The notes beneath the pieces were generated by a model, which saw only the letters and a program-made list of their open reading frames with translations, ran no database searches and was not told the origin of the DNA. From Robiginitomaculum antarcticum DSM 21748 (GTDB lineage Bacteria > Pseudomonadota > Alphaproteobacteria > Caulobacterales > Maricaulaceae): a stretch of DNA of 64,000 nucleotides. The stretch spans positions 434,001-498,000 of the forward strand of contig NZ_KB823011.1 in NCBI RefSeq assembly GCF_000365025.1, written 5' to 3'. This document shows, one piece after another, positions 40,889-52,588 of the stretch. Position 1 is the first letter of the stretch. Each line of letters begins with the position of its first letter. The position numbers and the translations under genes are program-made.

Positions 40889-41338
40889 ATGGGTGGTGAA
40901 GTGAAGTCTTTACTTAAATTATTGATGATTTTTACGGTCGGGCTGTTTCAGGCTCCATTTGTGAATGCGCAAGAGACTGGGAATACCCCGCTCATGTTAG
41001 ATATCATCGACGGGGAGACGTCATTTATCGTTATTCCCGGTCTAAATACGGCTTACTGGGTTCTTGGCGAATGTCGCCGCGATATCCCAATGAAGCCGCA
41101 GACTAAAAACAACAGCGCGTCTGCGCTGATGTCCCGGAAACTGTCGGACAAGGTGACACTTGGCCGGGAGCAAGTTGTGCTTGAGCAGCAATTCAAGTTC
41201 AACTTGACCGACACACCTGTCAATGTGGAGGTTTTCAATTCCGTACGTGGCGGATGGACAATAATTCCTGTCCGCCTCAATCAGCAGTGCCGCTTAGACG
41301 CGTCCTGTCTGGCCCGTATGGAATTGCCTATCTGCTAG
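40889..41338 (+). CDS. Small secreted protein of the chaperone-usher-like locus
   Basis: A protein of about 149 residues with a signal peptide (LLKLLMIFTVGLFQAPFVNAQ). I do not recognise the mature part. It has four cysteines (GECRR, QQC, ASC, PIC), enough for two disulfides, and mainly beta-type sequence, suiting a periplasmic or surface protein. A GTG at 40901 is an alternative start with a better-spaced GGTGG. It is followed after 47 nt by the large barrel protein on the same strand, so it is probably part of the same machinery, for example as an adaptor, tip or accessory factor. Confidence 0.65.
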   Translation: MGGEVKSLLKLLMIFTVGLFQAPFVNAQETGNTPLMLDIIDGETSFIVIPGLNTAYWVLGECRRDIPMKPQTKNNSASALMSRKLSDKVTLGREQVVLEQQFKFNLTDTPVNVEVFNSVRGGWTIIPVRLNQQCRLDASCLARMELPIC

Positions 41339-41385
41339 ATCCGCCCGTGGGCGCGCTATTTCCTATATTTTTCAACACATTACGC

Positions 41386-44300
41386 ATGTGGTTGTGTTGC
41401 GCTCTGCTCATCTGCGCCATGTCTTATGCGTCCGGTGCTTTCGCTCAGAACGAATCTTCTTTGAGCACAGTTCAATCGACAAACACGCCAGCAATTGACC
41501 CTGCCATAGAGAAAATTGTCGAAACCAAAAACAAGCTGATCGCCACTCCTGACCTTGCTCTGTCGATTACGATTGAAGGCCAAGCTCTGCCGATGGCCCA
41601 GGTCATGCGCAATGAAGAGGGTCATGTTTTCGTTCGCGCAGAACCTATCCTGGATTTTCTTAATGATAGCTATAACTTCGACGGAGAGGCAGGCGTGCTT
41701 GTGGTTAGGCGTAGTCAGGACGGCGTTCGCATGGAGCTTTATACTGATACGGGCGTTATCAAAGCTAATGGTAAAACGATCGGTAAGCTTCGCATATTCG
41801 GGCAGGTTACGCCGGAAGCAATAACGTTAACCCCTAACGCCATTGCTGTTCTATCCGGCGCGCGCCCCAAACATGATGAAGTCGCCGGAATTCTGCATTT
41901 CGAACTGGATCCCCGTCTGAAAGTCGCCACAGGATTTCAGATCTACGTTAATGATTCCCTTTTGATTAATCCTGAGCCCGCTGCGAAGTCTGTGGGCCCC
42001 GTCTTATTACTGCCGCTACTGCCTATAGCCGACGAACTGGGCAGTTTTGTTACCATGAGCCCGGACCGTAGTACGGTATCAATTCGCCGCGCGCAGGACA
42101 GCGCCGAGTTCGATCTTAATCTTTCTACCGGGCTCATCCGTGATAAAGGGCGCCCGATTGGCGTCAGCAAAGATGCGACCTATATCGACGCCGTCAATCT
42201 TCTTTTGCCGGTTAGTGCAATCGAGGTTCTGACCGGAACGCATATCACTGTTGATGCGGGTTCGGACCGGGTCAGTATCGAACTCGATGAACGGCTAAGT
42301 GGGTCCGTTGCGCCCGATTCAAAGATATCCGATCTGGCCTCGACGGAGACGTTCACGCTTGAGAGCCTAAAGTTTACCGTCGGTCCGGATGTCAGAAACG
42401 AAGTGACGGTTAATTTCAGGGCGCGAGGCCTTAACGGCAAAATACGCTATGAAATTCCGGATATGCCGACAAGTTCAGGAGAGCTAAAGCCCAGTTGGGG
42501 CGCATTGCAATACCGTACGCTGAACGGGCTTTCCGGGACAGTTGGAGATTATTCTGCCGACCTTCGTGAACTGGACGGGGTCGGTATTCGCCGTATTAGA
42601 GGGGCGAGCGCATCAAAAGCTGGTAAGAAAGGCCGCTGGGCTCTGGCTGCAGGCACGCCGGTCAATGGCAGCGTCAAAGTTAGCGATGAGCAGTCCCGAT
42701 TTACATTTGGCGGGATGGCGGCGGGACTGCGCTGGGCCGACATTGACGGATGGGAAGCCGGACTATCTATGCGCTATGATGAGCAATCCGAAGATCAAAG
42801 GCTTGTCCTGTCTTTCCTCAGCGGCAAACTTGGCAGCCAAGAAGGCAGTCGTGTAAAATGGAATGCACGCGGCGATATGGGCTATTTCTCGGGGCCGGAC
42901 AGGGATAAATCACTGGACATTCGCGCAGGGGCTGCGGCGCGTATGAAAATTACTGATAATTGGGACGTCGATGTCACGGCCAGCTATGATGGCGCTGAAT
43001 TTTTAAAATCAGTTCTGTCCCGTGAAGCCTTGGAAAAACGTCTTGCGGAGATCGAACGGGGTGAAGAGGATGTAGAGGATGGGCGCACCATCCCGGACAT
43101 TCGCTCACCCGGACAGGATCAGGCAACATTATCTTCCACTTTGCAATATAGCGCGCGCCGTATTATCGGTCCTTTAAAAAATCCGGGCGTCGCCCTGCGT
43201 GTCCAGCGCTCAACATCAGGCGTATCCGTTGGGGCGGGCACAGCCGTCACGCTTGATAATTGGGGCCTTACCGGGTCGACCACTTTAGCGAAAACCAATA
43301 CTTACTTAACAGCGGCCTATACCCAATATAGCCGTGAAGACACTTCTGAAACTAAGCTCACTGAAGACGGTTACAGCCTGTCCGTTCAGGGGTACCAAAC
43401 AACAAAGCTTGGAACAATCCGGGCGCAATATAGTCAAAGCGAGCAGGGCGGGACATCCTTATCGCAGCGCGCCGATATGGCCTATTCGATTAAAGCCCGT
43501 AGCTTTAATATGCCTAAATCCGCCAAATTAAGTGTTGCACCGACGATCAATGCTGTTTGGACTCCGGAGCAAAGTTTTGTGCGCGGCGGCCTGGTCGCCA
43601 ACGCAGATTCCGGCGATATATTCGGACGTAAAAACCGCGTTACAGCCGCATTTGGCGTACTTCAAAATTTCGGGGGCAAAGGCAGCGGCGAGCCGGATAC
43701 ATATTTTACTCTCAGTGCGGGGCGCCGATTGCAGATTAATAATAATCTGACTATGGGCCTTAGCTACCGTAATGATTTAAAAGGGGAACAGCGCATTGGC
43801 CTGAGGCTTGATGGACGTTATAACTTTAATGAGGGACGTAAGTTCAAAAATACTGAAACCGGTCGCGGCGTTTTAAAAGGCCGCGCCTTTCTGGACAAAA
43901 ACCGCGACGGTGTCCGCCAAGACGGGGAGCCGGGATTGCCCGGCATCACCTTACGCGTTGCAGGCGGAAGCAAAAGGCTCGCGCTGCGCACTGACAGTGG
44001 CGGTTATTACACGATCCAGAATATTAAAACCGGGATTAAAACCATGACTCTGGACGGTCGAAGCTTACCTTTGGGGTTTGCGCTCTCTGATGAGACTTTG
44101 CTACGCGCGACTATTCGGGATGGACATATTACTACCGTTGATTTGCCGATTGTTCAGCGCGGACAGATTACAGGCTTCGCCTATATTGATAAGAACGCAA
44201 ATGGTGAGTATGAGCGCGGCGAAATCCGTTTGGAAGGCGCGCGTCTTCGATTGACGGATAAGTCGGGTTTAACTCTACCCCAAGATATTTTGACCACCAG

Positions 44301-44580
44301 CTTTGGCCAATATGCCTTTGATGATCTGGCAGCGGGCAATTATGAACTCACAATTGTGAAGACTAATAATCCTAACTCGGTTCCGGGGACTAAAATGGCC
44401 GTTGCCCTCGACCCCGCACGCCAGCTTATGAGTAAAACGGCTATTGGCGCCCTCACTAAAATCACAAAACGGGAATTTGTCGAAGATGAGGGGACGACGA
44501 CCATCATTGCGGACAACCACATTCAAGACAATTATGAAGGTGGAGATTACAAAGAGGGAGACGTTATCGGCAGTCCGTAG
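41386..44580 (+). CDS. Usher-like outer-membrane barrel protein with SdrD-type B domains
   Basis: A 1064-residue exported protein (signal peptide about 1-21, ending GAFAQ). Order of parts: two related modules resembling the copper-amine-oxidase N-like/stalk fold (about 62-158 and 184-301), then a long Gly/aromatic, alternating-hydrophobicity region (about 345-825) expected to form an outer-membrane beta-barrel. Two SdrD/CnaB-like B domains follow (about 826-911 and 925-1005) with calcium-loop-like LDKNRDGVRQDGEPGLPG and IDKNANGEYERGE, then an acidic tail. This build recalls divergent fimbrial ushers. Genes for a periplasmic chaperone and two subunit-like proteins lie opposite. I see no classical PapC-type signature, so usher is inference. 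The frame is open further upstream, but ATG 41386 starts the signal peptide. Confidence 0.72.
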   Translation: MWLCCALLICAMSYASGAFAQNESSLSTVQSTNTPAIDPAIEKIVETKNKLIATPDLALSITIEGQALPMAQVMRNEEGHVFVRAEPILDFLNDSYNFDGEAGVLVVRRSQDGVRMELYTDTGVIKANGKTIGKLRIFGQVTPEAITLTPNAIAVLSGARPKHDEVAGILHFELDPRLKVATGFQIYVNDSLLINPEPAAKSVGPVLLLPLLPIADELGSFVTMSPDRSTVSIRRAQDSAEFDLNLSTGLIRDKGRPIGVSKDATYIDAVNLLLPVSAIEVLTGTHITVDAGSDRVSIELDERLSGSVAPDSKISDLASTETFTLESLKFTVGPDVRNEVTVNFRARGLNGKIRYEIPDMPTSSGELKPSWGALQYRTLNGLSGTVGDYSADLRELDGVGIRRIRGASASKAGKKGRWALAAGTPVNGSVKVSDEQSRFTFGGMAAGLRWADIDGWEAGLSMRYDEQSEDQRLVLSFLSGKLGSQEGSRVKWNARGDMGYFSGPDRDKSLDIRAGAAARMKITDNWDVDVTASYDGAEFLKSVLSREALEKRLAEIERGEEDVEDGRTIPDIRSPGQDQATLSSTLQYSARRIIGPLKNPGVALRVQRSTSGVSVGAGTAVTLDNWGLTGSTTLAKTNTYLTAAYTQYSREDTSETKLTEDGYSLSVQGYQTTKLGTIRAQYSQSEQGGTSLSQRADMAYSIKARSFNMPKSAKLSVAPTINAVWTPEQSFVRGGLVANADSGDIFGRKNRVTAAFGVLQNFGGKGSGEPDTYFTLSAGRRLQINNNLTMGLSYRNDLKGEQRIGLRLDGRYNFNEGRKFKNTETGRGVLKGRAFLDKNRDGVRQDGEPGLPGITLRVAGGSKRLALRTDSGGYYTIQNIKTGIKTMTLDGRSLPLGFALSDETLLRATIRDGHITTVDLPIVQRGQITGFAYIDKNANGEYERGEIRLEGARLRLTDKSGLTLPQDILTTSFGQYAFDDLAAGNYELTIVKTNNPNSVPGTKMAVALDPARQLMSKTAIGALTKITKREFVEDEGTTTIIADNHIQDNYEGGDYKEGDVIGSP

Positions 44581-44605
44581 CTTACTGTAAAAGAACACCA
44601 ACTTG

Positions 44606-44639
44606 ACGCGGTCGCCTTATCGGCACCGCGTTTTTTTTT
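44606..44639 (+). terminator. Intrinsic terminator after the usher-like gene
   Basis: ACGCGGT (44606-44612) pairs perfectly with ACCGCGT (44625-44631). An inner GCC/GGC pairing extends the stem, and nine T residues follow. It lies 26 nt after the stop of the usher-like gene. Confidence 0.92.
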
Positions 44640-44699
44640 GTCTTCTAATAGAGTGAGATTTAAATGCAGCCGTTTTAAAACCGTGGCGCTATTTTTGAT

Positions 44700-45551
44700 T
44701 TAGGGGTTGGAGCTTTGCTCACGGTAAAAATCAAAGGTGACATCTATGTTCATTTCACCAATGCCCATGGACATATCATAGTCGGGCATGCGGTAATTGA
44801 AATCAATACGGATTGTTTGATCCCCCAGATTACCGTTACGTCTGCGAATACCTGCTGAGCGCCCAAAATGAATCAGGCGTGTCGGATTGCTTTCCAAATC
44901 CCCGAGATCATTTATCCCCGTCAATATTGTTACGTTTTGGGTTCTTGCATCTGAGCCGTAGGAAAAACCGTTATCTGTGCCGCGGTTCGAAATTGCCGTC
45001 TCCAATTGGATATCACCAAGGGTCAGCGTATTGGCAAAATCGCCGGAGGCGTCACTGATATTGGCTCTCGCACGCAGCGAGAAACGTGTATTTCTTGATG
45101 AAACCCAAAAACTATGACTGTAGGCGCGTCCTTGTGCGTCAAGTTGCAGATCGGTCTGGCTGGACAGGTTGAAGGCCGAGTAAGTATCCGAAGCATCCAG
45201 ATATCCGTCCCCGTCATCTATCCGCGACCGCGTCAGGCTTCCTTCAATTATATCAAACCCGAACCCCTGACCATTTGCGGGAGCGGGAGCAACCGCATTG
45301 GTTGTTCCGGTCGTGCGAAATGTCTGATTTGGGTTATAATATGTTTGCATCGGCGCGCCATAGGCTACGCAACATTGTCCGGTATCGAAGATATAATTAT
45401 CGTAGATTTGGTAGTTCTCACTGTCATAGACCACAGCGCAGCCGTAGTTTTGACAATAAAAGTCATCATCTAAAAAACTGGCTGCTGCGGGTGCAGCGGC
45501 CAGCATAGCCGCAGTGCCGAGCAGGCTATATTGGAACAATGGTCTTTTCAC
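44700..45551 (-). CDS. Secreted subunit-like protein (minor) of the fibre-like locus
   Basis: A 283-residue exported protein (signal peptide about 1-24, ending PAAAS). The mature N-terminus has a Cys/Tyr-rich segment of about 40 residues (FYCQNYGCAV, GQCCVAYG). The rest matches the 46569-47459 protein: a DDGDGYLDASDT calcium-loop-like motif, SFWVSSRNTRFSLRA, ASGDFANTLTLG, LIHFGRSAGIRRRNG and the C-terminal strand MNIDVTFDFY, here with a 7-residue tail. It starts with GTG 10 nt after the chaperone stop, so it is coupled. The extra Cys-rich head suggests a tip or base subunit, by inference. Confidence 0.72.
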   Translation of the reverse strand: MKRPLFQYSLLGTAAMLAAAPAAASFLDDDFYCQNYGCAVVYDSENYQIYDNYIFDTGQCCVAYGAPMQTYYNPNQTFRTTGTTNAVAPAPANGQGFGFDIIEGSLTRSRIDDGDGYLDASDTYSAFNLSSQTDLQLDAQGRAYSHSFWVSSRNTRFSLRARANISDASGDFANTLTLGDIQLETAISNRGTDNGFSYGSDARTQNVTILTGINDLGDLESNPTRLIHFGRSAGIRRRNGNLGDQTIRIDFNYRMPDYDMSMGIGEMNIDVTFDFYREQSSNP

Positions 45552-45561
45552 GCGGTTAAGA

Positions 45562-46413
45562 TCAATCCGCTACAAATATGATCGGTGATATTTCGACGGC
45601 AGTGCTGCGGAATTTATTTTGCGGCGCGAAGACATTGTTCATATCAAATTCAACGCTATATTCACCGGGCGTAATCTTCTCGCTATCGGTGAGTTTGACA
45701 TTATAAGTGCGGCTTTGACGATCAAGAACGACAGTCGAAAGCGGAGTCTCGGACACCGTTTCTCCGGATTCATTTTTAACGTGGGCTATACCTTGAAGGC
45801 GCGCATGCGCATTGCCTTCATTTTTAATCTCCATCGAAAGCATTGGCGCATCACCGCCCACAAAGGAAACAGTCTTTACTGAAGGTTCGGATGATGACGG
45901 CGTCAGTGTCAGATAAAACAGGGAGGCGAGTTGATAGCGGTTCCACACGCCGGAGTTATCGCCGCGCTTATCCAGTTCCGGTAGAAGCGTGGTTGCGAGT
46001 AAAGCAAAGCGGTGATCCCCTTTTTCTTCGACTTTCATGGGCACCGTAATTTCGACCACCACGTCCTGTGATGTTTCAGGTTTCAACGTCACTGAAGCGG
46101 GCGAGAAGCGGACCCATTCGGAGGCACTGCGCGGGCTGTCACCCGGGGCGTCCAATACGAGCTTGCCGTCTTTATCCAGACTCCAATCAGCCAGGGACAT
46201 GGTCAAACTGATAGTTTTTGTCTTATGAACATTTCCGATCGTGACGACTTGGCGTTGTCGGTCACCGGGCTTGATGGTCATTTCGACCGTACTGGGCTGT
46301 ACGCCCAGTCCAAAGGCTCCCGCGACATGCGCAGTCCCAAAGCTTAGACCCAATAAGGCCGCGCAGATCAGCGCAGACGTGCTTGTTAATTTTGCGAAAC
46401 TATGAATGCCCAT
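45562..46413 (-). CDS. Periplasmic chaperone of PapD/archaic-usher type
   Basis: A 283-residue exported protein with two Ig-like domains. After the signal peptide (to about residue 33) the first domain has GLGVQPSTVEMTIKPGDRQRQVVTIGN and SEWVRFSPASVTLKPETSQDVVVEITVP followed by GDHRFALLATTLLP. This is the WxxxxPxxxxLxPGxSQ pattern of fimbrial chaperones, closest in style to archaic (sigma-type) chaperone-usher systems. The second domain (about 175-283) has FVGGDAPMLSMEIKNEGNAHARL. Such chaperones fold subunits by donor-strand complementation and deliver them to an usher. It is followed by the minor subunit gene and preceded by a terminator that separates it from the major subunit. Confidence 0.78.
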   Translation of the reverse strand: MGIHSFAKLTSTSALICAALLGLSFGTAHVAGAFGLGVQPSTVEMTIKPGDRQRQVVTIGNVHKTKTISLTMSLADWSLDKDGKLVLDAPGDSPRSASEWVRFSPASVTLKPETSQDVVVEITVPMKVEEKGDHRFALLATTLLPELDKRGDNSGVWNRYQLASLFYLTLTPSSSEPSVKTVSFVGGDAPMLSMEIKNEGNAHARLQGIAHVKNESGETVSETPLSTVVLDRQSRTYNVKLTDSEKITPGEYSVEFDMNNVFAPQNKFRSTAVEISPIIFVAD

Positions 46414-46509
46414 TTTATGCCCCGGATATGATTAAGTATTTGGTTAGCGTAGTCTTAAACCGTTTTTCATTCGTTAAAGTGCGCCGTTAAAAGCTGCATA
46501 CGCTGAGCC

Positions 46510-46543
46510 AAAAAAATAGCCCCCGGCGCGAGCCGAAGGCTAT
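46510..46543 (-). terminator. Intrinsic terminator between major subunit and chaperone genes
   Basis: On the - strand ATAGCCTTCGGC pairs with GCCGGGGGCTAT (12 bp with two G-T pairs) around TCGC, followed by seven T residues. It lies 26 nt beyond the stop of the 46569-47459 gene and about 100 nt before the chaperone start. It should cut most transcripts after the major subunit. Confidence 0.92.
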
Positions 46544-46568
46544 AATTGCGTGAACTAAACGCGTATTC

Positions 46569-47459
46569 TTAAGGGACGTAAACTGTGTAAGTAACGTCGG
46601 CTTGAAGCGTACCTGAACCCATTGACAAATCGTAACCCTTGTCCGCGCCGGGAGCATTTGGGTCTATCAATGAATATTGGGCGTCGAAACGGACGGATTG
46701 CTGAGCAATTGATCCGCGCGAGGCGGCTGTACGGCGACCGCCGTCAAAGACTTTTGTCGCAGATGCCATATCATCAAGGCTGTTAATTGCCGTGACGATA
46801 CCCGTTCCGCCGGTTGACGGATCCTGCGCTTTATCGCCAACTCCGGAAAGAGAAGAGGAATCTGCTGTTGCAACGCCAAGACTGAATTTGATATTAGAGG
46901 CCGTCATATTTCCGGTTGTGACACCTAAAGCATCAGTTGTGCCGGCAAAATCGCCTGTTGCGACAACGTTAGAAGACGATGCATAGATGTCAAATGCAGC
47001 GTTAGATGCGACATAAAATGATCCTTTGTGAACGTTCGATAAAGCGCCGTCGATATCAAGGGTATTGTCGATCCCGAATGCCGTGAGCGTATCTCCGGCA
47101 TCAAGCAAACCGTCTGAATTAGTGTCACCGATTGTTGAGCCCGTAATCGGATCTATTGTCCCGCCGCCGGTAGCCGTTGTTCCGTCAACCGGGTCTAGGT
47201 CGCCAGTGACGACAGCAAAAGTATCAGCCGCTGTTCCGCCAATTAGATCTTTACCGGCATTGCCGCTGCCTTCGGTCAATAGAACAAAGTCAGACACAAC
47301 CGGTCCATCTGTCGCGTCAGCTGCAAAATCATCAGCACCCCAAACGACAACGACGCCCAAAACTTTAAAGAATGGACGATCGATAACGGATGCGTAGGCT
47401 GTTGATGCAGTCATAAGTGTGGCAGCGCTCGCTGCCATAGCAAGTTTTTTAATAGACAT
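46569..47459 (-). CDS. Secreted subunit-like protein (major) of the fibre-like locus
   Basis: A 296-residue exported protein (signal peptide about 1-23, ending TAYAS), low in charge and rich in Gly, Asp, Thr and Ser. It carries a dockerin-like calcium loop DTNSDGLLDAGDT, then regions shared with the 44700-45551 protein (SFYVASNAAFDIYA, ATGDFAGT, FDGGRRTAASRG, VRFDAQYSL). The last 16 residues read GSGTLQADVTYTVYVP: Gly at the 14th place from the end and alternating hydrophobic residues, as in the C-terminal beta-strand motif by which chaperone-usher pilins are recognised. It has no cysteine. Terminator placement makes it the most abundant product of the locus, as expected of a main fibre subunit. 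Confidence 0.75.
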   Translation of the reverse strand: MSIKKLAMAASAATLMTASTAYASVIDRPFFKVLGVVVVWGADDFAADATDGPVVSDFVLLTEGSGNAGKDLIGGTAADTFAVVTGDLDPVDGTTATGGGTIDPITGSTIGDTNSDGLLDAGDTLTAFGIDNTLDIDGALSNVHKGSFYVASNAAFDIYASSSNVVATGDFAGTTDALGVTTGNMTASNIKFSLGVATADSSSLSGVGDKAQDPSTGGTGIVTAINSLDDMASATKVFDGGRRTAASRGSIAQQSVRFDAQYSLIDPNAPGADKGYDLSMGSGTLQADVTYTVYVP

Positions 47460-47668: not shown

Positions 47669-50600
47669 ATGAATAAACAGGCAGGTTTGATCGCCGCAAT
47701 TATTGCACTCGTTTTCGCGGCATGGTGGGCGGGATACGCTTTGATTGGACAGCCCGACCCGACGCCTAAGGCCGACACGCCTGTTACTGTCATTACTGAG
47801 CCGCAGCCCTTCGGCAATAATGATGGTCTTGGGGAGGTCTCCGAAGATGGAGGGGACGCGAAAAAAGATATTGCCTTTCGGTTTGAGGGATGGGAGCCGG
47901 ATATGAGCGGCAATCTGACCAAGGCCTGTCTGAATTTCACAGACTCGATCGGAATGGATGATACGCGCTTCACCGATTATGTGACGACCACTCCGGATGC
48001 AAAGCTGGCGGCCTCTGTACAGGGCCGGCGCGTATGTCTCTCGGGTTTTGATTTTTCCAGAGAATATGAATTGACCATCAAAGCCGGTTTGCCCGGCCCG
48101 GAAGGTAAAACTTTGGCCGAAGACCGTAACGTCACCATTGACTTTGGTGACAAGCCCTCTGTCCTGCGCTTTGCGGGCGACGGCATCATCCTGCCGCGCA
48201 TTGGCGCGCAGGGGCTGGCGATTGAGACCATCAATGTCGACACGATAAGTTTGGACATATCTTCTGTGAATGACCGCATCATCGCGCAGCGTGACCCGCA
48301 ATCCGGAGAGTCCGCCGCAGAAGGCGATTATAGTTATGTCTATGAGAACGCTGCCACATCTGTTCGTGAAAGCGTTTGGAGTGGTGAAATATCGGTGAAA
48401 TCAAAGTCAAACCAGACAGTCACGACTGTCGTGCCGATTGCAAACATCATTGGTGATTTGAAACCCGGAGCATATGTCATCAGCGCGGAACGTAAAAGTG
48501 ACGATAGCGAAAACCGTCCTGCGCGGGCTTGGCGCTGGGTTATCGTCACTGATTTGGCCATCACCAGCTATCAAAGTGATGACGCGCTTAACATCACCCT
48601 ACGCTCAATCAATACCGCCCGCACGGTTTCTAATAGCCGCGTCACGCTTGTGGCGAGTAATAACCGCGTTTTGGGCGAGGCGCGCACGGATGTAAACGGT
48701 CACGCCCGCTTTGACGGTGCGCTCCTCAAAGGGCAGGGCGCAAGCGCGCCGCGGATGATCATGGCCTATGGTCCTGATGGAGATTATGCGATGCTGGACA
48801 TGCAGCGCAGTCCTCTGGACCTCTCGGACCGCAATGTGAACGGCCGAACAGTCAGCGGCGCGCTGGATCCTTATATCTATACGGACCGCGGCGTTTATCG
48901 TCCGGGCGAGACAGTGCATTTGGTGGCCATGCTGCGTAGCCATCGCGGCGCAGCGGCCCCGCGCGACGGGACATTTAAACTCGTTCGCCCTAACGGAATT
49001 GTCGCGCTGGAAAAGCGCTTTACACAAAAAGACCTCCTCTCCGGTTCTTGGGTACATAGCTTCGATCTGCCCGAATCGGCTCCGCGCGGTGTATGGCGCG
49101 TTGAGATTTACGCAGACGGACTTGATCTTGTCGGGTCACAATCGATTGCGGTTGAGGATTTCATTCCGCAGAAAATCACGGTCGATATCAAATCGGGCGA
49201 CGGATTTGTCACCAATGAGGACGGCGTTAAAATCACTCTGGCCAGCGAATTTCTCTATGGCGGACCGGGCAAGAACCTGACAGCCGAAGCGCAAATGCGC
49301 GTACGCGTAGATCCCAATCCGTTCCCGGCTTATTCTGACTTTAACTTCGGACTGGCCACCGAAACTTTTCAGGAAGAAAGTGTCATTCTCGTTCAAGGCA
49401 TAACAAATGAAAAGGGCGAGCTTATTACAGAAGCTTCGCTGGCCGGTCTGAACATTAGCTCAAGTCACCCGCTGCGCGGCGAGATTACAGCGGGGATTGC
49501 AGAGCCGGGCGGACGTTACGTCAAAAACTCGGGCCGCATCGCGATCCGCACAAACCCGCTCTATCTGGGTATTCGTCCAAATTTCGACGATGACCGCGCC
49601 GCCCGGCGCAAGCCTGCCACACTTGATCTCTTGGCGGTAAACGCAGAAGGCGCGCCGCAAGCTAAAACGCTGGACTGGAAGCTGGTTTATGAGGACTGGG
49701 ATTATGTCTGGTATCGTAGCCGCGGGGAGTGGAAATACCGCTACACCATTAATGACGAGCTACGCGATAGCGGTGAGGTCGCCACTGGTGCCGACGGTAT
49801 GGCGGAAGTCAGCCAGACCCTGGATTGGGGCCGTTACCGCCTTATCGTGACGGATCCTGAAACAGATGTAACCTCATCTTATCAATTCAGCGTCGGCTGG
49901 GGCGGAGCGAGCACAAGCGACCGACCTGACCAATTGGTGATTGCCGGTCCGACAGAGCCGGCGCGCCCAAACAGTATTGTCGAACTAACCCTTAAAGCCC
50001 CGTATGCAGGACAGGGTGAACTGGTCATTGCCAGCGATAAAGTGCACGAAATCCGCGCAATCACTATTCCCGAAGGCGGTAGTACAATTTCAATTCGTAC
50101 AGATGCGTCATGGGGGGCAAGCGCCTACGCCATGATTACGCTTTACACACCGCGCGACACAGCCGCCCGGCCGGTGCCGCGCCGTGCCGTTGGAGTAGCC
50201 CATATTGCAATGAGTGCAAAAGCACAAACTTTAGGCCTGTCTATTGAAGCGCCCGAAGTCACCCGCCCGCGCCAGGTGCAGAATGTCACAGTCAAGATAG
50301 ACGGAATAGGCAACGGTCAAAATTATCTGACGCTTGCTGCGGTGGACGAAGGCATATTGCGTATCACCAAATTTGAGAGCCCGAATGCACAGGACTGGTA
50401 TTTTGGCAAAAAGGCTCTGAGTTTGGAAGTGCGCGATGATTATGCGCGGCTGCTAAACCCCAATATGGGGCAGGCCGCTATGGCCAATTCCGGCGGTGAC
50501 GGTCTGGGCGGCGAAGGTTTGACGGTTACGCCGACCCGTATTGTGGCGCTGTGGAGCGGCATTATAAATGTCAAAGGCGGCAAAGCCGTTATTCCGCTTA

Positions 50601-52588
50601 GCCTGCCGGACTTTAACGGCGAAGTGCGCTTGATGGCGACGGCGTGGAATGACCAATCGGTCGGCAGTGCCAGCCGCTCCATGAAAATTCGCGACCGCGT
50701 TCCGGCCACATTGACCTTGCCGCGCTTTATCGCGCCGGGGGACACAGCCATTGCAACCCTGTCGCTGGATAATGTCGAAGGTGATTCCGGCCTCTATAAT
50801 TATACTATCACTGGCGGCGATTTAAAAACATCTGCCGATTCCAGCGGAGCTGTTCAACTCGCCAAACAGCAAAGAGAGCGCGGCCTGATTACTCTGTCCT
50901 CTGACGATGAAGGCATTAGCACGGTTGATTATACTGTCACCGGCCCGGGCGATTATACGGTTAGCTCGGATTATCAAATCCAGAGCCGTTCGCCTTATAT
51001 GCCGGTCGAACGCCGTATAGAGACGCGGATGAGTCCGAACCAGACATTGGCCATGCCTGATGATTTGATGACAGGCCTCAATCCCGAAAGCGTACAGATC
51101 AATATCTCATTTTCTGCGTCTCCGGATCTTGACCCGACGGCTTACGCGGCCTCGCTGGTGCGCTATCCCTATGGATGCACGGAGCAAACCGTCAGTTCGG
51201 GCCTACCGCTTTTATATGCCTCTGATCTGGGCGGCATGCCGCGCACGGATGAAGGTGAGTTGAAACGGCAAATGCAAAATGCGGTTTACAAAATTAGCAA
51301 CCGTATGGACGCGCAAGGCAGCTTCGGTCTGTGGCGTGCGGGCGATAATGCCGGTCAAGCTTGGCTCGGCGCTTACGCGACTGAGTTTCTGCAGCGCGCA
51401 GACGCGAAAGATTATGACGTGCCGGATGATGTCATGCGCCGCGCCTATAGTGCGCTGCGTGAAATGACCCGTATGGAAAGCTATTCCTCTCTGGCGTATG
51501 AAGACTACCGCTACCAAAGTGACCGTGACGGCGCAGCACGGAAAATCCGTATGGCGCAAACCGCAGCCTATGCCCATTACGTTCTCGCGCGCGGCGGCAA
51601 GGGCGATTTGTCAAAAATGCGCTATTTCTACGACACACACCGCAAAAACCTGCGCTCGCCTATGGCCTTTGCTCATATCGGCACAGGATTTTCCATGATG
51701 GGCGACAGCGTACGGGCCAAAAATGCCTTCGACGCCGCGTTTAGCGCTGTCGGCTATGATGATAATAAAGATTATTATCAGACACCTTTGCGCGACAGTG
51801 CGGCGCTGGTCTATTTATCAGACGAAGCGAAAATGCCTGATCGCGTAGCTCAGGCGCAGTCCGGTTTTGCCAAATTACTCCGTGATCCCGATATGCTATC
51901 GACGCAGGAGAAAGCCCAAACTATTATGGCCATGCGGGCGGTTCGCGCGGGCGCGGCAGATATAGATGTGTCATCACGCGGCGTCAGCGGTTTTGGCTCT
52001 AATGAGACCGTCGCGTTAAGCGGAGCTGAAATGTCCGGTGATATTGCTTTCACCAATACAGGGCAGTCGGACATCTACCGGGTCGTCAGCATTTACGGTA
52101 CGCCGAACCGCGCGCCGCAGCCCGTTTCCCAAGGCTATCAAGCCAATAAAAAGTCTTATTCCATATCCGGAAACCCTGTGGATTTAAGCTCCATGGTCAA
52201 AGGGCAGCAAGCCGTCATCGTCCTGACTGTGCGCTCCGATATGAACCGCACACGCCAGACGGTGATCGCCGATCTGCTTCCGGCAGGGTTGGAGATTGAG
52301 ACGATATTGCGCCCCGCTGACGGAAAAACAAATGGGGGTATTAACGGCCCGTTTGAATGGGTTGGCGAGATTGCGGATCTGGACATGGCTGAGGCTCGCG
52401 ACGACCGTTTTGTCGGCTCGCTCAAGCTCAGCAATCGTAACTGGGTTCGTATGGCTTATGTTGTCCGCGCCGTAACCGCGGGCGACTTTGCTATTCCCGG
52501 CGCAATTATCGAAGACATGTACCGCCCGGGCGATATTGCGATTACGCCGGCTGGGCGCATAACAATCCTAACCGATAAGCCGGGGTAA
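47669..52588 (+). CDS. Alpha-2-macroglobulin family protein (thioester type)
   Basis: A 1639-residue periplasmic protease-trap protein anchored by an N-terminal helix (about 5-27); no lipobox is seen. A series of MG-type beta domains includes the MG pattern DRGVYRPGETVHLVAMLR and the macroglobulin core TPTRIVALWSGIINVKGGKAVIPLSLPDFNGEVRLMATAW. The thioester site YPYGCTEQTVS has Cys1170 and Gln1173, followed by an alpha-toroid domain (about 1160-1450). These proteins trap attacking proteases and work with PBP1c in cell-envelope defence and repair. CAGGA precedes the ATG by 5 nt. Its stop is immediately followed by the pbpC start. Confidence 0.95.
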   Translation: MNKQAGLIAAIIALVFAAWWAGYALIGQPDPTPKADTPVTVITEPQPFGNNDGLGEVSEDGGDAKKDIAFRFEGWEPDMSGNLTKACLNFTDSIGMDDTRFTDYVTTTPDAKLAASVQGRRVCLSGFDFSREYELTIKAGLPGPEGKTLAEDRNVTIDFGDKPSVLRFAGDGIILPRIGAQGLAIETINVDTISLDISSVNDRIIAQRDPQSGESAAEGDYSYVYENAATSVRESVWSGEISVKSKSNQTVTTVVPIANIIGDLKPGAYVISAERKSDDSENRPARAWRWVIVTDLAITSYQSDDALNITLRSINTARTVSNSRVTLVASNNRVLGEARTDVNGHARFDGALLKGQGASAPRMIMAYGPDGDYAMLDMQRSPLDLSDRNVNGRTVSGALDPYIYTDRGVYRPGETVHLVAMLRSHRGAAAPRDGTFKLVRPNGIVALEKRFTQKDLLSGSWVHSFDLPESAPRGVWRVEIYADGLDLVGSQSIAVEDFIPQKITVDIKSGDGFVTNEDGVKITLASEFLYGGPGKNLTAEAQMRVRVDPNPFPAYSDFNFGLATETFQEESVILVQGITNEKGELITEASLAGLNISSSHPLRGEITAGIAEPGGRYVKNSGRIAIRTNPLYLGIRPNFDDDRAARRKPATLDLLAVNAEGAPQAKTLDWKLVYEDWDYVWYRSRGEWKYRYTINDELRDSGEVATGADGMAEVSQTLDWGRYRLIVTDPETDVTSSYQFSVGWGGASTSDRPDQLVIAGPTEPARPNSIVELTLKAPYAGQGELVIASDKVHEIRAITIPEGGSTISIRTDASWGASAYAMITLYTPRDTAARPVPRRAVGVAHIAMSAKAQTLGLSIEAPEVTRPRQVQNVTVKIDGIGNGQNYLTLAAVDEGILRITKFESPNAQDWYFGKKALSLEVRDDYARLLNPNMGQAAMANSGGDGLGGEGLTVTPTRIVALWSGIINVKGGKAVIPLSLPDFNGEVRLMATAWNDQSVGSASRSMKIRDRVPATLTLPRFIAPGDTAIATLSLDNVEGDSGLYNYTITGGDLKTSADSSGAVQLAKQQRERGLITLSSDDEGISTVDYTVTGPGDYTVSSDYQIQSRSPYMPVERRIETRMSPNQTLAMPDDLMTGLNPESVQINISFSASPDLDPTAYAASLVRYPYGCTEQTVSSGLPLLYASDLGGMPRTDEGELKRQMQNAVYKISNRMDAQGSFGLWRAGDNAGQAWLGAYATEFLQRADAKDYDVPDDVMRRAYSALREMTRMESYSSLAYEDYRYQSDRDGAARKIRMAQTAAYAHYVLARGGKGDLSKMRYFYDTHRKNLRSPMAFAHIGTGFSMMGDSVRAKNAFDAAFSAVGYDDNKDYYQTPLRDSAALVYLSDEAKMPDRVAQAQSGFAKLLRDPDMLSTQEKAQTIMAMRAVRAGAADIDVSSRGVSGFGSNETVALSGAEMSGDIAFTNTGQSDIYRVVSIYGTPNRAPQPVSQGYQANKKSYSISGNPVDLSSMVKGQQAVIVLTVRSDMNRTRQTVIADLLPAGLEIETILRPADGKTNGGINGPFEWVGEIADLDMAEARDDRFVGSLKLSNRNWVRMAYVVRAVTAGDFAIPGAIIEDMYRPGDIAITPAGRITILTDKPG

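Follow-up and report, generated by a model that had tools for sequence, protein, structure and literature searches.

A probable chaperone-usher pathway in Robiginitomaculum antarcticum with a very divergent usher predicted to lack a plug

Do five adjacent genes for exported proteins, whose products match neither PF00577 nor the solved ushers, chaperones and pilins in sequence, encode a machinery for assembling a surface fibre? The genes occupy positions 40889-47459 of a 64-kb stretch of the genome of Robiginitomaculum antarcticum DSM 21748, the whole stretch being called the window here. They follow immediately after guaA. A small protein with four cysteines (40889..41338, 149 aa) and a 1064-aa barrel protein (41386..44580) are encoded on the plus strand, and the genes for subunit 2 (44700..45551), a chaperone (45562..46413) and subunit 1 (46569..47459) lie on the minus strand and converge on them. 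All five open reading frames are present as an earlier note on this DNA described them. Pfam and NCBIfam provide no family name for subunit 1, subunit 2 or the small protein. Among named organisms, Robiginitomaculum, Litorimonas and Hellea have the closest relatives of the barrel gene, and Henriciella more distant ones. The terminators claimed for the locus stood in one place only: a strong 12-bp hairpin followed by a T-run between the genes for subunit 1 and the chaperone (46516..46543, minus strand), a possible partial terminator, was matched in 1 of 200 shuffles, and a scan of eight loci turned up such a hairpin only in the window and in L150. Overall, terminator-like sites were not in excess (10 found, 9.2 expected by chance). 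A gene for a bacterial alpha-2-macroglobulin (47669-52588) is divergent from that of subunit 1, and similar genes also flank subunit 1 in several relatives (L021, L028, and L150).

The barrel protein matches only SdrD_B-like and Cu_amine_oxidN1 domains in Pfam, and no usher family. Its claimed layout of two stalk modules, a barrel and two SdrD-type B domains was borne out by Pfam, hhalign and AlphaFold2. N-terminal modules 1 (aa 52-184, 41539..41937) and 2 (aa 185-310, 41938..42315) are duplicates of each other (hhalign 99.1%, E 5e-19), and the second, which is Cu_amine_oxidN1-like, matches PF07833 at aa 204-298 (E 2.6e-6). The two SdrD_B domains (aa 827-1000, 43864..44385; PF17210, E 5.5e-17) take the position of CTD1 and CTD2 of ushers. 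An AlphaFold2 model built from 25 homologues (pLDDT 80, pTM 0.58) has two N-terminal alpha/beta modules, approximately 26 strands according to DSSP (aa 324-813, 42355..43824), and C-terminal beta-sandwiches. When this model was compared with the PDB using Foldseek, a structural check proposed in the earlier note, it proved closer to ushers than to any other type of barrel: FimD and PapC make up the top five and most of the top 15 matches (best E 3e-17), and the best LptD and TonB-receptor matches (approximately 1e-6) are some ten orders of magnitude behind. The TM-scores are low (0.27/0.34), and the Foldseek result therefore backs the class and domain order of the barrel protein, not its detailed geometry. 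Within that limit, the model has the domain order of ushers, namely an N-terminal periplasmic domain, a large barrel and two C-terminal beta-sandwiches.

The hallmarks of PapC-type ushers are absent from the sequence, as had been claimed: PF00577 is not matched by the barrel protein, although the same search does recover other ushers in related genomes. The barrel of PapC has 24 strands; its plug lies between the sixth and the seventh, and its gating helix between the thirteenth and the fourteenth (PMC4356140). No plug domain was found in the predicted barrel, because no loop is long enough to hold one; the longest has 43 residues, half of which are helical. An alpha-helix between predicted strands 13 and 14 (aa 537-558, 42994..43059) sits where PapC has its gating helix. 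The barrel protein thus resembles the classical ushers FimD and PapC in its best structural match, in this helix and in the two C-terminal beta-sandwiches, but differs from them in having no detectable sequence similarity, no plug, another N-terminal domain, and approximately 26 predicted strands instead of 24. The model supports the assignment of the 1064-aa protein as a very divergent usher. Cyanobacterial matches of the barrel profile were dropped, as the similarity was confined to the SdrD_B domains. Clusters that recur across cyanobacterial genera combine an SdrD_B protein of approximately 305 aa with one protein of 1200-1300 aa and another of 740-870 aa (L058:9401-16711, L062:9410-16542, and L057:69-7255); in L058, the cluster examined, the 740-870 aa protein contains DUF11.

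Another family of the order has operons of a PapD_N chaperone, a 902-923 aa barrel missed by PF00577, and DUF4402-type subunits (L165:6550-10618, L166:6463-10546, L168:7850-11547, and L171:6900-11098). The barrels of these operons are probably another usher clade without a family model. Their profile matches that of the window barrel protein from the end of the barrel through the two C-terminal domains (96%, E 1.9e-9), and their N-module is weakly matched by module 2 (E 1e-4). They also contain a plug-like segment of the kind LDLRGELPLGEEVELYVNEVL...GRYEFLDVPLAYGLNTIRLVFYG, which shows a weak alignment to the equivalent region of the L205 usher, a PF00577 protein. These operons resemble the window in having a PapD_N chaperone related to the window chaperone and in the matching part of the barrel protein, and differ in having one N-module, this plug-like segment, small DUF4402-type subunits and a compact gene order. 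It is plausible that the 902-aa barrels are intermediate between ordinary ushers and the plug-less window barrel.

The 283-aa protein with two Ig-like domains had been claimed as a fimbrial-type chaperone, and profile links and hhalign place it in the chaperone superfamily of chaperone-usher systems. Membership in the PapD superfamily was reached through intermediates; a direct PF00345 match is absent. Comparing profiles directly with EcpB, EcpC, FimC and FimD yielded no result that could be used by itself, which is why intermediates were used. The profile of the window chaperone matches those of the PapD_N chaperone relatives in the other family of the order (L165, L171, and others) with 97% and E 9.5e-11 in hhalign, and one of these relatives exceeds the PF00345 (PapD_N) cut-off. 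In a pool of 1681 ORFs, the nine best non-family matches of the chaperone profile represent eight distinct proteins, one being present under two loci. All are chaperones or chaperone-like proteins of loci of the chaperone-usher type, nearly all beside a barrel gene, and they include bona fide archaic chaperones next to PF00577 ushers; after them, the scores drop to noise. As a single sequence, the window chaperone gives weak Ig-like matches, including WxLIP_PGBD and fn3_5, and it could on that basis be a WxLIP- or Fn3-like protein that binds the cell wall or the surface. This is extremely unlikely, given that the chaperone of L205, which adjoins a PF00577 usher, matches the profile across both domains (residues 17-239), that the link to PapD_N exists, and that a signature arginine is present. 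This residue, Arg135 in the motif GDHRF, is invariant in seven homologues and all five relatives. In the alignment it falls on the arginine of EYR in the relatives and of YYR in EcpB (Arg89), whereas FimC has no equivalent. An arginine in strand F of domain 1 is characteristic of archaic and alternative chaperones (PMC4654587). The alignments support the assignment of the window protein as a putative chaperone of the archaic/alternative type within the PapD superfamily. The carboxylate anchor of this class also includes a second arginine and a tyrosine in domain 2 (Arg174 and Tyr196 in CsuC). Arg205 of the window chaperone lies in a GNAxxR-like context that resembles, by eye, that of Arg148 in EcpB, with no clear equivalent of the tyrosine.

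The distribution of the genes was examined in 299 genomes of the order, with a close chaperone defined by E below 1e-80. The 21 genomes that have a full-length barrel are precisely those that have a close chaperone; the Fisher p of approximately 1e-32 overstates the independent evidence, since the genomes are related. Subunit homologues, numbering two to five in each genome and often dispersed, were found in 18 of the 21 barrel genomes and in none of the 11 barrel-less genomes tested, and the small four-cysteine protein in 17 of the 21 (0 of 10 barrel-less genomes tested). The genes track together even when unlinked, as the co-occurrence search suggested in the earlier note has revealed: the two gene groups are approximately 80 kb apart on one contig in G016 and on different contigs in G057. 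Because they are often in separate loci, the co-occurrence is not explained by linkage alone. The same separation in many genomes would also fit a barrel for the export or display of just one surface protein or glycan, with the chaperone and subunits serving another process over the same taxonomic range, as would the 17 genomes that hold a diverged chaperone without a full barrel. Such independent processes, which we judge very unlikely, are at odds with the perfect match of the two distributions (21 of 299 genomes) and with the usher-like fold of the barrel. Subunits were not recognisable in the four of the 17 genomes that were tested. In a subgroup of Henriciella-like genomes, the barrel gene has shrunk to one for a 350-570 aa protein with one or more SdrD_B domains, beside tig (L174:5914-7356, L173:6059-7726, L013:1303-2400, and L012:742-1845), perhaps with a trace of an N-module in L174. 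These genomes retain the diverged chaperone elsewhere, and subunits were not found in them.

The two subunits are related, as claimed (36% over 79-294, E 2.6e-10). Subunit 1, the putative major subunit (296 aa), has no cysteine in its mature part, and subunit 2 (283 aa), which contains cysteine, adjoins the chaperone gene wherever both were found among the loci read. The glycine at -14 and the alternating C-terminal strand reported for subunit 1 are present and are conserved in most of 39 relatives, and the two subunits share an N-terminal segment (DRPFFKVLGVVVVWG in subunit 1). Together, this segment and the C-terminal strand fit the sequence pattern expected of donor-strand pilins. The earlier note had also presented calcium loops as typical of these subunits, a claim that did not hold for the family: subunit 1 has the EF-hand/dockerin-like loop DTNSDGLLDAGD (47091..47126, minus strand), but the acidic loop IDDGDGYLDASD of subunit 2 (45186..45221, minus strand) is only partially EF-like and lacks the first Asp, and a full EF-like loop occurs in 7 of the 39 related subunits, among which a looser GxLDxxD loop is commoner. 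Calcium-loop subunits were accordingly rejected as the defining trait, and calcium binding may occur in this genome without being a trait of the family. A 188-aa protein encoded elsewhere in the same genome (L198:1411-1977; G000:C2:479221) has the motif RRKTAARRGSVESQS in common with subunit 1 and is a candidate third subunit, either truncated or divergent.

The model of subunit 1 was poor (pLDDT 54), and its structural reading was set aside; its PDB matches, which include TasA, FimG, FimA, CfaB and PapA, are non-significant. The best of them, on this low-confidence model, is a TasA fibre (E 0.012), as might be expected if the locus made a donor-strand fibre of the TasA/camelysin type without a true usher, the barrel being a mere anchor or porin. 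We regard this as improbable, because the barrel is far nearer to ushers than to other barrels and a chaperone of the PapD superfamily tracks exactly with it. TasA fibres are not known to require an usher-like barrel or such a chaperone.

The small secreted protein has four cysteines after its signal peptide, as claimed. Cys62, Cys134, Cys140, and Cys149 are invariant in 22 homologues, and in almost all homologous loci its gene adjoins that of the barrel; the G031 locus lacks it. The small protein may be a partner of the usher.

The main inference of the earlier note, that the barrel is an usher and the set a chaperone-usher pathway, is supported by the Foldseek matches, the chaperone profile with its arginine, and the co-occurrence in 21 genomes. 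Usher-like architecture, chaperone homology and genome-wide co-occurrence agree on this reading, and the locus probably encodes a chaperone-usher pathway of a divergent kind. A cell-surface fibre, its assembly by donor strands and a role in adhesion would follow by inference. The exported subunits (subunits 1 and 2, and unlinked paralogues in relatives) would enter the periplasm, be capped by the two-domain chaperone, and dock at the N-terminal modules of the usher, which would face the periplasm. The barrel would serve as the pore, with the SdrD_B domains standing in for CTD1 and CTD2, and the subunits would be polymerised into an outward-growing fibre, with the conserved N-terminal segment probably serving in donor-strand exchange. 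If the usher has no plug, as predicted, module 2, the four-cysteine protein or the helix-bearing loop would have to shut the pore.

The proposed pathway resembles the archaic (sigma, Csu-type) and alternative (alpha, ECP/CFA-type) pathways in its two-domain chaperone with the F1-strand arginine, its usher-like barrel, and its exported subunits, which have an extension at the N terminus and an alternating strand at the C terminus. It differs from them in having no PF00577, SCPU or DUF4402 match, a predicted barrel without a plug, two copies of the N-module, SdrD_B domains where CTD1 and CTD2 would be, genes divided among separate loci, and the extra four-cysteine protein encoded upstream of the barrel. 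A separate class of chaperone-usher systems, in which the plug was lost, the duplicated N-module or the four-cysteine protein took over gating, and SdrD-type C-terminal domains handle the subunits, is conceivable, and we propose it tentatively. Literature searches, in which subscription papers were mostly beyond reach, found no description of the system, and it is apparently an undescribed, very divergent version of the chaperone-usher machinery.

The finding extends the chaperone-usher superfamily past the current family models and into marine prosthecate bacteria. The 902-aa barrels offer a path to new family models that would reveal similar systems now annotated as hypothetical. A natural usher seemingly without a plug would allow a direct test of what keeps closed a pore that folded subunits can pass through.
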